Shown: positions 22,083-40,627 of the stretch, in pieces | Position numbering within the stretch: position 1 is the stretch's first letter | Layout: each line of letters opens with the position of its first letter | DNA from: Oryzomonas sagensis | Lineage (GTDB): Bacteria > Desulfobacterota > Desulfuromonadia > Geobacterales > Pseudopelobacteraceae | Direction: 5' to 3' | DNA length: 64,000 bases | NCBI RefSeq assembly: GCF_008802355.1 | Contig: NZ_VZRA01000001.1 | Location: forward strand, 628,980 to 692,979 | Translations under genes and position numbers: made by a program | Notes under the pieces: generated by a model | The model's database searches: none | What the model was told of the DNA's origin: nothing | What the model saw: only the letters and a program-made list of their open reading frames with translations

Positions 22083-23537
22083 ATGAGAAAAACGTTTGTG
22101 CACTGCCTTTCGATCCTTCTGGTAAGCACCGCTCTCGCCCATGGCGAGGGGAATGCCGGACCTGCAGAAACACCACCACCGGTGCCCTCGGGGACCATCG
22201 CCACCTTCTGGCCGCTGTTCGATTATCGTTCCAGCCCGGCGACCGGCTACAGCAACCTTTCCATCCTGGGGCCGCTCTTCAAACATGAGCACAATGGCGA
22301 CACGACCAGGACCGCCGTCAGGCCGCTCTTTTTCAAGCAATCGACCCCCGGGGCCGCCGAAAGCGACATCCTCTACCCCCTGGCCTCCACCGGCAGCGGC
22401 GAGACCGGTTCCGACACCCAGGTGCTCCACCTGTTCCAAAAACACACCGAACGCGCCGGGACGGCTGAGGAGCGGCACAGCAGCATGCTGTTCCCCTTCT
22501 ACATCAGCGGCACCTCTGACAAATACGGCCCCTACACCTCCGTATTCCCCCTGTACGGGGACATCTACGAGCGCTTCTGGCGCGACGAGTACCATTACGT
22601 CCTGTTTCCCCTCTATGGGCGCACCGTGAAGCGGGGCACCACCTCCATCAACTGGCTCTACCCGATCTTCAACAGCGTGTCAGGCGAAAAAGAAAGCGGC
22701 TTCGCCGTCTGGCCCCTGTACGGACAGTCGCGCAAGGAGGGGGTTTACGACAAACGGTTCGCACTCTGGCCGATCTACAGCGACGAGCATCTCGGCCAGG
22801 ATACGAATAATCCGACCAGAAGCCTCAACCTGCTGCCGTTTTATGCCTCGTCGGAGTCGCCGCAGCGCAGTTCGACCCACATCCCCTGGCCCCTGTGCGG
22901 CGTGGTGCGGGACGGCGCGGGGACGGTCGTGGAGCGGGACTTTTTCTGGCCCTTCTGGATGACCGCCACGGGCGCCACTTCCAGCACCGAACGCTTCATC
23001 CCCTTTTATGCCGAATCGAAGACCAAGGAGGGGAGCAGCCGCTGGGTCATGTGGCCGATCTACCGCAGAGCGACCATCGACTCCCCCCTGTTCCGCCAGG
23101 AGAAGACCAGCCTGTTCTATTTCCTGTTCCACCGCTCCGACGAAGCCTGGCCCCAAGCGGGCAAAGACCGTGCCCAGAGCGCCTTTTGGCCGCTTTACGC
23201 CTGGAAGCGGGACGAAAACGGCCTGCGAACCCTCTCCATGCCCGCCCTGGTGGAGCCGGTCATCTGGAACGAGGGGGTCGAACGCAACCTGGCGCCGCTC
23301 TGGCGGCTGTTCATCAGCACGTGGGACGACAAGGGTGATGGCGCGACATCGATCCTCTGGAACCTCTTCTGGCGTGAAAAGCGGGGCAACGAGAGCGCCT
23401 GGGAACTCTCGCCGCTGGTTTCGTACCGTTCCGCCCGGGAGGGGAGCGAATTCAAACTGTTGAAGGGGCTGTTCGGCTATGCCGCGGACAAGGGGGGGAC
23501 ATCCCTGAGTATCTTCTGGATACCGTTCGGGATATAG
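22083..23537 (+). CDS. secreted protein with tandem Pro-aromatic (WPLY-type) repeats
   Basis: 484 residues, not assigned to a named family. Signal peptide (about 1-20, LAHGEG), good ribosome site (GGGAGCAGGA). From residue ~35 to the end it repeats every 20-35 residues a short motif of the form [FWLV]-[W/x]-P-[LIF]-[YFW], often followed by G: FWPLFDY, LFPFY, VFPLYG, LFPLYG, LYPIF, VWPLYG, LWPIY, LLPFY, PWPLCG, FWPFW, FIPFY, MWPIY, FWPLY and finally IFWIPFGI. Such periodic aromatic strands suggest a beta-barrel or beta-propeller at the outer membrane (inference). It precedes mlaE by 60 bases on the same strand. Confidence 0.75.
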   Translation: MRKTFVHCLSILLVSTALAHGEGNAGPAETPPPVPSGTIATFWPLFDYRSSPATGYSNLSILGPLFKHEHNGDTTRTAVRPLFFKQSTPGAAESDILYPLASTGSGETGSDTQVLHLFQKHTERAGTAEERHSSMLFPFYISGTSDKYGPYTSVFPLYGDIYERFWRDEYHYVLFPLYGRTVKRGTTSINWLYPIFNSVSGEKESGFAVWPLYGQSRKEGVYDKRFALWPIYSDEHLGQDTNNPTRSLNLLPFYASSESPQRSSTHIPWPLCGVVRDGAGTVVERDFFWPFWMTATGATSSTERFIPFYAESKTKEGSSRWVMWPIYRRATIDSPLFRQEKTSLFYFLFHRSDEAWPQAGKDRAQSAFWPLYAWKRDENGLRTLSMPALVEPVIWNEGVERNLAPLWRLFISTWDDKGDGATSILWNLFWREKRGNESAWELSPLVSYRSAREGSEFKLLKGLFGYAADKGGTSLSIFWIPFGI

Positions 23538-23597
23538 GGTATTCTACGCCATGAACCACCCGCACCGTGCGGGAGAAGGCCTCTTTCAGGATAAACC

Positions 23598-24374
23598 ATG
23601 ACCAAATTTCTCGAATTCATCGGCAAACAACTGATCTACTCGTTCGGCATCGTCGGCGAGGTGCTGATCCTGCTCAAGCGGACGCTGTTCGCCTTCCGCG
23701 AGGCGCCCCACAACATGCCGTCCATCCTGGCCCAGATGGCCATCATCGGCTACGAGACCCTGCCGGTGGCCTCGGTGATGGCCTTCTTCGTCGGCATGGT
23801 CCTGGCGCTGCAAACCGGGGTGGAACTGTCCAAGTACGGCACCCAGGATATCGTCGGCAGTATCGTCGGCCTCTCCATGGTGCGGGAAATGGGGCCGGTC
23901 ATGGTCAGCTTCCTGGTGGCGGGCAGGGCGGGCAGCGCCATGGCGGCGGAGATCGGCGTCATGAAGGTCTACGAGGAGATCGACGCCCTCACGACCCTGG
24001 AGATCGACCCGGTGCGCTATCTGGCCATGCCGCGCCTGATCGCGGCCCTGATCTGCGTGCCGGTCCTGACCATCTATTCCGACTGCGTCGGCATGCTCGG
24101 CGGCGCCATCATCAGCCACCTGCACCCGAAGCTGTTCATCTCCTACGCCACCTACACCGATTCCCTGCGCCTGGCGCTCAAATTCAGGGAGATCGCCGCC
24201 GGCCTGATCAAGTCCTTTGTCTTCGGCGGCATCATCGCCGTCATCTGCTGTTACGTGGGATTCAACACCTCGGGGGGGGCGCGGGGGATCGGCGTCTCCA
24301 CCACCCGTTCGGTGGTGCTCTCCTTCATGCTGATCCTGGTGGCGGATTACTTCCTGACGCGCATACTGATGTAA
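23598..24374 (+). CDS. mlaE: MlaE-family lipid ABC transporter permease
   Basis: 258 residues, the normal length. Five to six membrane helices; family hallmarks VASVMAFFVGMVLALQTG, VREMGPVMVSFLVAGRAGSAMAAEIG and the C-terminal GGARGIGVSTTRSVV. MlaE is the inner-membrane permease of the MlaFEDB system that moves phospholipids between inner and outer membrane. No MlaF ATPase is adjacent; an MlaD-like protein lies 15 kb away at 39.6 kb. The upstream neighbour is the Pro-aromatic repeat protein, probably in the same operon. Confidence 0.93.
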   Translation: MTKFLEFIGKQLIYSFGIVGEVLILLKRTLFAFREAPHNMPSILAQMAIIGYETLPVASVMAFFVGMVLALQTGVELSKYGTQDIVGSIVGLSMVREMGPVMVSFLVAGRAGSAMAAEIGVMKVYEEIDALTTLEIDPVRYLAMPRLIAALICVPVLTIYSDCVGMLGGAIISHLHPKLFISYATYTDSLRLALKFREIAAGLIKSFVFGGIIAVICCYVGFNTSGGARGIGVSTTRSVVLSFMLILVADYFLTRILM

Positions 24375-38687: not shown

Positions 38688-39569
38688 CTAGCGGGCTTTC
38701 GGTGTGGTTGCCGCCGGGGACCAGGGATAGTCCCGCACATGCTCGCCGAACTCCTCCTTGGTGTAGCGGTTGACCCGCCGCAACGCCAGGGTGATGACGA
38801 TCACCAGCGGCAGGCTGTACATGAGGATACCGCACAGGGCCATGAAGCGCTCGCCGATCAGGAGGGTCATGGTGATGTCGAAGACGAGCACCGACAGGTA
38901 GAGGACCGGCCCCAGCAGGGAGCGGAAGGGGAGATTGCAGACGCCCCTGGGGGCGTCGTTCTGGCGGCGGGCGTCGATCATCTGGAAGGCGGCCACCAGG
39001 CAGAAACTGGTCAAGAGCCACCCCCAATAGTTGGAGAGCGGCACGCCGAAGTGGACGCCGTTTTCCCGGTAGCCGTAGATCTGCCCCAGGAACCAGCGCC
39101 GTCCCTGGAGAGCCACCGGGTCGATCACGATATCGAGAAAGGTTTGCAGGAACGCCCCGAGGACCAGTGCCGACAGGGAACGGCGGATGGCGCGCGTCTC
39201 CAGGGTGGCCACGTTCCAGCGCCAGGACTTGAGGGGCGAAACGATGAACAGGGCCGTGGTGTAGCTGCAATAGGTGAGGAAGACGTAGGAGAGCGAATCG
39301 AAGAACGGCACCCCGGCAATCCACAACTCCCTGCTGCTGGTGGTGTCGATGTAGTAGTACCAGCCGTAGGGGAAGCCGGTGTTGATGGAGAGCCACTCCG
39401 AGGCAAAGGCGATCAGGTAGCCCACCACGGTGAAGAGCATGGTCCTGCGCCACCCCACATGGGGCACGCAGGCCAGGAGGTACGCCCCGAAGAAGGCAAA
39501 CACGTAGGGGCGCATGGTGAAGGTGCCGAGGGCGATGTCCAGGTAGGCGTTGCCGGTTGCAGGTGCCAT
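38688..39569 (-). CDS. CruF-like carotenoid biosynthesis membrane protein (DUF422)
   Basis: 293 residues with seven to eight membrane helices. The family signature EWLSINTGFPYGWYYY and the DIVIDPVA segment identify the carotenoid-biosynthesis/DUF422 group that includes CruF (carotenoid 1,2-hydratase) and bisanhydrobacterioruberin hydratases. No other carotenoid gene is in the window, so the substrate may be another isoprenoid. It starts eight bases after the stop of the mlaD-like gene on the same strand. Confidence 0.78.
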   Translation of the reverse strand: MAPATGNAYLDIALGTFTMRPYVFAFFGAYLLACVPHVGWRRTMLFTVVGYLIAFASEWLSINTGFPYGWYYYIDTTSSRELWIAGVPFFDSLSYVFLTYCSYTTALFIVSPLKSWRWNVATLETRAIRRSLSALVLGAFLQTFLDIVIDPVALQGRRWFLGQIYGYRENGVHFGVPLSNYWGWLLTSFCLVAAFQMIDARRQNDAPRGVCNLPFRSLLGPVLYLSVLVFDITMTLLIGERFMALCGILMYSLPLVIVITLALRRVNRYTKEEFGEHVRDYPWSPAATTPKAR

Positions 39570-39577
39570 GGCCGAGC

Positions 39578-40627
39578 TCAGAACAGCGTGCCGACGACGC
39601 TGCCGATGACCGAGATGGGGCCGGTATCCTGCAGGCCTTCCATGGTCTTTTCGGTCTTCTTGAGGGTCGATATGGCATTCAGGTACAGCTTGTCGTCGTT
39701 GACCAGCTTGCCGATGGTGCCTTCGCCGCTGTTGATCTTGCGGGTGATCTCCTTGAGGTTGACCACCGTGGCCTTCAGCTCGTCGTAGAGAGCAGGGTCG
39801 TTGACCAGTTTGCCGGCCGTCCCCTCGCCCTTGTCGATGCGGGCGGCAATGCGGTTCAGCGACCCCATCCCGTCACGCATCTCCCTGACCGTGGCCAGGG
39901 CGTCGGTGTAGAGGCGGTCATCGGTGAGAAGCTTGCCGGCCGTTCCTTCGCCCCGTTCCAGGCGGGCGCTGACCGTTTTCAGGCTGCCGGCCACGTCGCG
40001 GATGTCCCGCCCCAACTGTTTGTCGTTCACCAGCGTCCCCAGGGCGCCCTCGCCCCGGTCGATCTTGGCGGTAATGCTGGAGATGCTCTTGAGCGAGGTA
40101 TTCACCGCGGCGCGGTTCTCGTCCAGGATGGCGGAGATCTTGGTCATGACCTCGTTCTGATTGCGGTTCAGATCGACGATCAACTGCTTGGCGTCCTTGG
40201 TCAGTCCCCCCACATTATCCATAATGGCGTCGATGCCGAACGCCTCGGTACTCTTTACCGTGCTGCCCGGGGGGAGTTCCGGGCTTGCGGGCGAACCGAA
40301 GGAGAGCCCCAGGAACTGGCCCCCCAGCATGCTCGTCATGCGGATGCTGGCCACCGTGTCCTGTTTGATATGGGTGCCCGGCTTGACCTCGAAGTCCACC
40401 TCCACCCGGCTGTCCTGAACGGCGATCTTGGAGATCGTCCCCACCTCGACCCCGGCCAGCTTGACGGCGTCCCCCTGCTTGAGCCCGGTGGTGGAGGAGA
40501 GAAATACCTTGTAGGGGACTCCCCGGTCAAAGATCTTCCAGCGATTGCCCACCTCCAGCATCAGGCCGAACAGGACGATGCTGAGGATAAAGAACAGGCC
40601 GACTTTTGCTTCGTGCGACAGGGTCAT
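39578..40627 (-). CDS. MlaD/MCE-family lipid transport protein with C-terminal repeats
   Basis: 349 residues. One N-terminal membrane anchor (about 8-26), then the MCE domain (about 38-118: VFLSSTTGLKQGDAVKLAGVEVGTI ... MLGGQFLGL). The C-terminal 200 residues contain at least four repeats with the core GEG-[A/T]-x-G-[T/K]-L-[V/L]-[N/T]-D separated by helices (e.g. RIDKGEGTAGKLVND). MCE proteins carry phospholipids across the periplasm with MlaE/MlaF. Here the gene is unlinked from mlaE (23.6 kb) and precedes a CruF-like gene. Confidence 0.88.
   Translation of the reverse strand: MTLSHEAKVGLFFILSIVLFGLMLEVGNRWKIFDRGVPYKVFLSSTTGLKQGDAVKLAGVEVGTISKIAVQDSRVEVDFEVKPGTHIKQDTVASIRMTSMLGGQFLGLSFGSPASPELPPGSTVKSTEAFGIDAIMDNVGGLTKDAKQLIVDLNRNQNEVMTKISAILDENRAAVNTSLKSISSITAKIDRGEGALGTLVNDKQLGRDIRDVAGSLKTVSARLERGEGTAGKLLTDDRLYTDALATVREMRDGMGSLNRIAARIDKGEGTAGKLVNDPALYDELKATVVNLKEITRKINSGEGTIGKLVNDDKLYLNAISTLKKTEKTMEGLQDTGPISVIGSVVGTLF

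Follow-up and report, generated by a model that had tools for sequence, protein, structure and literature searches.

The window analysed here is a 64,000-nucleotide stretch of the Oryzomonas sagensis genome (contig NZ_VZRA01000001.1), and it raises the question of what function a repeat protein with a putative signal peptide serves immediately ahead of mlaE, a gene of the Mla lipid transport system. The preliminary description had placed a secreted protein of 484 residues 60 bases before mlaE, and both the open reading frame and the Pfam match of its neighbour bear this out, with 60 bp separating the end of the repeat protein gene (REP) from the start of mlaE; the signal peptide is putative, the N-terminus being hydrophobic and signal-peptide-like on inspection of the translation by eye. 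The closely similar REP of Oryzomonas japonica Red96 shares 93% identity with that of the window. The features of this pair are:

22083–23537, + strand: REP, exported proline-hairpin repeat protein, 484 aa (open reading frame with ATG start; homologue family).
22083–22145, + strand: putative signal peptide of REP, approximately residues 1–21, boundary approximate (by eye from the translation; AlphaFold2 helix at residues 2–19).
23598–24374, + strand: mlaE, permease of the Mla ABC transporter, 258 aa (PF02405, E 1.8e-76).

A [FWV]-x-P-[LIF]-[YF] motif had been proposed to occur about 13–17 times in REP at a spacing of 20–35 residues throughout. Its recurrence is far above chance, but the strict pattern was found only 6 times in residues 25–484 (mean 0.11 and maximum 3 in 20,000 shuffles), and counts of 13 and 15 were reached only with two relaxed forms (shuffle means 1.05 and 1.26, maximum 6); none of the 20,000 shuffles attained the observed strict or relaxed counts. 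The proposed spacing has to be revised, as successive repeat prolines are mostly separated by 17–22 residues and in a few cases by double steps of 35–45. These prolines are the constant element of the repeat, with eleven of them (P44, P64, P81, P99, P156, P176, P194, P211, P230, P252 and P270) invariant across 35 aligned homologues whose identity to the window REP falls to 21%. The unit comprises ~18 residues, namely a strand, an x-P-[LIF] turn, a second strand and a polar turn. Among 26 sequences, large hydrophobic residues occupy positions −2, −1, +1 and +2 of the eleven invariant prolines in 97, 82, 100 and 88% of cases, respectively, and only 2–8% at +7, +8, −7 and −9, where charged residues reach 34–44%; in the broader residue profile around REP prolines, the +1 position itself served to select the sites.

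The AlphaFold check suggested in the preliminary description gave no prediction of disorder. The AlphaFold2 model, built on 26 sequences and of moderate confidence (pLDDT 77.7, pTM 0.53; two of five models below 50), is a meander of 44 short, consecutive, antiparallel strands, 39 of them 4–6 residues long (38 of 5 or 6) and none longer than 8, and the N-terminal half modelled alone gave 28 similar strands (pLDDT 80.8, pTM 0.51). Hydrophobic residues cluster at the proline turn, with no alternating pattern along the strands. The top VIA-align rows are single-layer sheets. The two leading matches fall on residues 299–484, the CPAP G-box with 150 aligned positions at Z 13.0 and rmsd 6.2 and MORN1 with 161 at Z 11.8 and rmsd 4.7; each was also found with the N-terminal half (Z 10.9, rmsd 13.2 and Z 10.2, rmsd 9.9, respectively). 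OspA sheets follow, with LptD (Z 6.5), porins and ushers at lower Z, and the match to the apolipoprotein B beta-belt is weak (Z 9.3, rmsd 10.0, 212 aligned). In Foldseek, propellers come first, at TM-scores near 0.1, and they are not among the top VIA-align rows; the best Foldseek E-values, for LRP6, IFT-A and megalin, with BamB below them, were rejected on TM-scores near 0.1 and rmsd >20, and with the N-terminal half model no Foldseek match reached E 0.001. At a beta-strand spacing of ~4.8 Å, the 44 strands of the modelled ribbon would, if flat, extend ~210 Å, near the length of the PqiB needle, a resemblance that is suggestive only. The needle is given as 230 Å in PMC10897342.

Within its family, the window protein has homologues in 18 of 76 genomes, and it matched 30 loci of named records, among them ones of Geobacter argillaceus, Geotalea toluenoxydans and Oryzomonas japonica. 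A profile of 26 sequences matched 79 of 141 genomes of the order, a count that takes in one genome (G033) whose sole match is a larger relative (L154), and 112 of 395 genomes sampled from the phylum, where at most three candidates were scored per genome and REPs may therefore have been missed. Alignment A1 holds 26 of 31 sequences (L023 and L024 left out as near-copies of L022, L029 and L049 as cut and L044 as frameshifted), and alignment A3 holds 32 of the 38 phylum loci described below plus three others (L115, L116, L129, L139, L150 and L152 omitted). The window REP matched no Pfam family at E up to 10, 35 members of the family gave one chance-level Pfam match only, and PDB sequence searches returned no relative. 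Among the models of particular relevance, MlaA (PF04333) had no match at E up to 10 with the window protein or at 0.01 with the 35 members, MlaC (PF05494) had none at E up to 10 with the window protein nor in the 35 members, and the Pfam models of ABC auxiliary lipoproteins (PqiC/DUF330), of MORN repeats and of AsmA and bridge-like lipid transfer proteins matched neither the window protein nor the 35 members. The likeness to the NCBIfam family LA_1737 (NF047486) is a weak, sub-threshold profile similarity, seen in 6 of 35 members (best E 6.5e-6) and in the window REP at 18.7 bits over 29 residues, below the cut-off of 60; no paper was found on LA_1737 in Leptospira.

Most REP homologues carry no lipobox. 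The pattern was present in 7 of 69 loci scanned, all of them distant homologues, and absent from the window REP; a further match, in L027, is probably false, and the REP of L139, missed by the pattern, looks like a lipoprotein by eye. Two larger proteins with the same repeat, of 924 aa (L153:7928–10702, − strand) and 705 aa (L154:6660–8777, + strand), have no Mla gene near them and are possible relatives with another role. In genus g21, each REP match holds one in-match TGA, probably the gene's own stop codon near the C-terminus.

The search for REP beside mlaE in other genomes, proposed in the preliminary description, was successful. For 38 loci (L115–L152) chosen across families before their neighbours were seen, with one (L152) from the window's order and a few families represented more than once, genes on the same strand within 4 kb of REP included an MCE gene in 36, mlaE in 32 and an MlaF-like ATPase in 31, and Pfam confirmed the identities of Mla neighbours in sample loci. 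All three occur together in 30 of the 38, a conserved co-encoding that, with the 36 MCE-linked loci, places REP within an Mla operon of the MlaEFD type. Gene order around REP varies while the gene set stays together, the commonest arrangement being mlaE-mlaF-mlaD-REP, with REP-mlaE-mlaF-mlaD in L115, L116, L139 and L143. Three loci (L142, L144 and L146) have mlaD beside REP without mlaE or mlaF, L128 has no ATPase gene and L129 is gapped. An 808-aa frame in L129 was considered as an MCE-REP gene fusion and rejected, because it runs through N stretches and so provides no evidence of fusion. An unusual variant is seen in L132 (10515–12238, − strand), where mlaD-REP comes after a pair of ABC ATPase genes and mlaE was not found; in L144, a gene for a TPR protein precedes the mlaD-REP pair.

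In the 30 named-record loci, mlaE lies near REP in 21 and an MCE gene in 17; three of the nine loci without mlaE (L027, L029 and L049) end at a contig edge. Across both sets, no Mla gene is near REP in L022–L024, L028 (beyond 6 kb), L030, L047 and L133. Fourteen of the 30 named-record loci share the operon REP-mlaE-mlaD-PF04240, without mlaF. The PF04240 (Caroten_synth) gene is the fourth operon gene in Geobacterales (L031–L036, L038–L041 and L043–L046), and its presence may hint at the lipid handled. The window holds the same genes as two pairs, 22083–24374 (+) and 38688–40627 (−), ~14–15 kb apart on opposite strands, the second pair consisting of:

39578–40627, − strand: REP-class mlaD, MCE protein, 349 aa (PF02470, E 1.4e-16).
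39581–39622, − strand: codons of the conserved hydrophobic C-terminal tail of MlaD, last 14 residues (tail pattern).
38688–39569, − strand: PF04240 (Caroten_synth) membrane protein (PF04240, E 2.9e-29; after mlaD in 14 of 30 loci).

The window MlaD is 59% identical over 349 aa to the MCE protein of the intact REP-mlaE-mlaD operon in L039, and the PF04240 protein 69% identical to the copy there, while the window MCE protein is only ~26% and 23% identical to two other long MCE proteins of its genome. Judged by sequence, mlaD at 39578–40627 is the separated partner gene of one ancestral operon with REP. Four genes each for MlaE and MCE proteins are present in the genome, and the Mla ATPase for this REP system must come from elsewhere. 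A second set in the same genome (L164, G000:C1:1116000–1120800) combines short MlaD, MlaE and MlaC, with no MlaA match in the assembly.

REP is linked to one class of MlaD, 300–420 aa long. Among the best-scoring 150 MCE matches, on which the length classes rest, frames of 300–420 aa number 25 in REP-bearing genomes against 2 in genomes without REP, frames of at least 460 aa 0 against 29, frames of 270–298 aa 2 against 2 and frames of up to 213 aa 7 against 83. Of the two exceptions of 300–420 aa, one frame (G446) runs off its contig and the other (G180), on a short contig, bears the tail that is typical of REP-linked MlaD. This hydrophobic C-terminal tail, GPISVIGSVVGTLF in the window, is conserved in 53 of 56 REP-linked MCE frames, as scored with a pattern composed after the tails had been inspected, and the remaining three frames are incomplete (L037, the upstream piece of L044, and L129). 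Eleven MCE proteins not beside REP yielded a match to the pattern only in that of G180, and it is absent from the two other long MCE proteins of the window's genome. In three genomes without REP (L161, L162 and L163), long MCE proteins of 465–509 aa have aromatic-rich C-terminal strands that look barrel-like by eye.

The distribution of REP is opposed to that of MlaA (PF04333), which is present in 17 of 112 genomes with REP and 192 of 283 without it (odds ratio 0.085, Fisher p 3.6e-22, a value that is too small because the sampled genomes are related). By family, MlaA is present in 9 of 26 with REP and 61 of 81 without (p 2.8e-4), based on hand-copied family labels and a total of 107 families read from tables. 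In 34 genomes hand-picked by REP and MlaA status, MlaC is missing in 15 of 17 with REP and no MlaA (the exceptions being G000, the window's genome, and G141), and present in 14 of 14 with MlaA and no REP and in 3 of 3 with both. REP and MlaA coexist in 17 genomes; in three of these whose gene positions were listed (G458, G186 and G221), the MlaD encoded next to MlaA is short and the one encoded next to REP is long. A link of REP with the lipid transporter, raised in the preliminary description, is thus strongly supported by the phylum-wide linkage to mlaE, mlaF and mlaD and the anticorrelation with MlaA, and REP very probably belongs to the Mla lipid transport system. As REP occurs mostly where the usual outer-membrane parts are missing, it may be the outer-membrane end of a common lipid transporter.

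In E. coli, the outer-membrane-side lipid job is done by MlaA and MlaC, and in barrel-type MlaD by the C-terminal barrel. Like MlaA and MlaC, REP is an exported partner of MlaEFD, but it occurs mainly in genomes without MlaA and, in the subset compared, without MlaC, has no Pfam similarity to either and pairs with a long instead of a short MlaD. The long MlaD of Veillonella parvula with its C-terminal outer-membrane barrel (PMC10665443) likewise goes without MlaA and MlaC, which are replaced by the proposed outer-membrane contact, whereas REP-linked MlaD, about 310–420 aa long in nearly all complete cases, has a short hydrophobic tail at its end, the additional part being encoded by a gene of its own. 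The same paper describes most MlaD as long, in the majority of cases lacking a barrel, and mentions as yet unidentified proteins possibly aiding barrel folding. PqiC (DUF330), an auxiliary lipoprotein of MCE systems at the outer membrane (PMC10897342 and PMC5561183), likewise has a gene of its own in the operon of the MCE protein that it partners; REP differs in being an all-beta repeat with no match to its Pfam model and, in most cases, no lipobox. In VIA-align, MORN repeats and the CPAP G-box, free-standing single-layer meanders, come nearest to the predicted fold of REP, but REP has no sequence similarity to them, a proline-centred unit and the features of an exported bacterial protein. MCE neighbourhoods were surveyed by Pfam domain in PMC5561183, where DUF330 is named as the commonest downstream partner; a survey of that kind would miss REP, as the family has no Pfam or PDB relative. 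For Desulfovibrio alaskensis, PMC5193443 reports fitness defects and SDS sensitivity for an operon of the MlaA type, not for REP. No account of the REP family was found in the open-licence PMC papers searched on Mla or MCE in Desulfobacterota, Geobacter, Deltaproteobacteria or Desulfovibrio or on their gene neighbourhoods.

The reading that we favour, with moderate confidence, is that REP is the outer-membrane-side partner of a long, tail-bearing and barrel-less MlaD. MlaE and the MlaF ATPase would act at the inner membrane, and REP-class MlaD, with its MCE domain, long helix-like part and hydrophobic C-terminal tail, would extend into the periplasm. REP, exported via its signal peptide and probably lipidated in some lineages, would form an outer-membrane-side station, a row of ~18-residue hairpins with W/F-P-L-Y turns on one edge and charged turns on the other, which receives the tail of MlaD and moves lipid into or out of the outer membrane; the W/F-P-L-Y edge would touch the membrane or the tail. 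The location of REP, its contact with the MlaD tail, its lipid handling and the direction of transport are inferred. More tentatively, Desulfobacterota might possess three interchangeable outer-membrane ends for one MlaEFD engine: short MlaD would go with MlaA-MlaC, very long MlaD would carry its own fused barrel, and barrel-less MlaD would dock by its hydrophobic tail on a free-standing REP ribbon, a previously undescribed end that moves lipid into or out of the outer membrane.

Other functions would account for parts of these data. Bridge-like lipid conduits have been proposed for AsmA/TamB and VPS13-type proteins, and REP itself might be one if its meander curled into a hydrophobic groove that carried lipid over part of the periplasm, either alongside the MCE tube or past it. 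The 44 consecutive short antiparallel strands and the weak matches to the apolipoprotein B beta-belt and LptD would suit such a conduit, but those matches have very large rmsd, the hydrophobic residues gather along the turn edge and do not make up a single face, and the linked MlaD may form a tube itself, making this unlikely. We also consider it unlikely, and to a similar degree, that REP serves the MlaD needle as a structural clamp or assembly factor, with no part in lipid handling. Scaffolding is a known role of free-standing meanders, including the folds nearest to REP (MORN and the CPAP G-box), and the pairing of REP with a single MlaD class and the conserved tail of that class would suit such a function. 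Against it stands the anticorrelation with MlaA, which, MlaA being a lipid-handling protein of the outer membrane, points to a role there.

The integral outer-membrane beta-barrel or propeller envisaged in the preliminary description appears very improbable. While REP is all-beta, aromatic-rich and exported, and barrels and LptD occur in lower VIA-align rows and propellers in the Foldseek rows, its strands are mostly of 4–6 residues without an alternating pattern, the hydrophobics sit at the turn edge, single-layer sheets rank above the barrels and the Foldseek propeller TM-scores are those near 0.1 given above. Least probable of all is that REP and the Mla genes are mere neighbours, with REP serving a separate envelope function; the REP genes without a nearby Mla gene (L022–L024, L028, L030, L047 and L133) and the unlinked larger repeat relatives L153 and L154 are consistent with this, but MCE linkage in 36 of 38 loci, association with a single MlaD class and the anticorrelation with MlaA all argue against it.

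REP is probably a previously unnamed, dedicated component of an Mla system, in which its membership is well supported. As a conserved exported protein encoded beside one class of long MlaD, mainly in genomes without MlaA, it offers both a candidate for the outer-membrane end of the transporter and a direct test of it.
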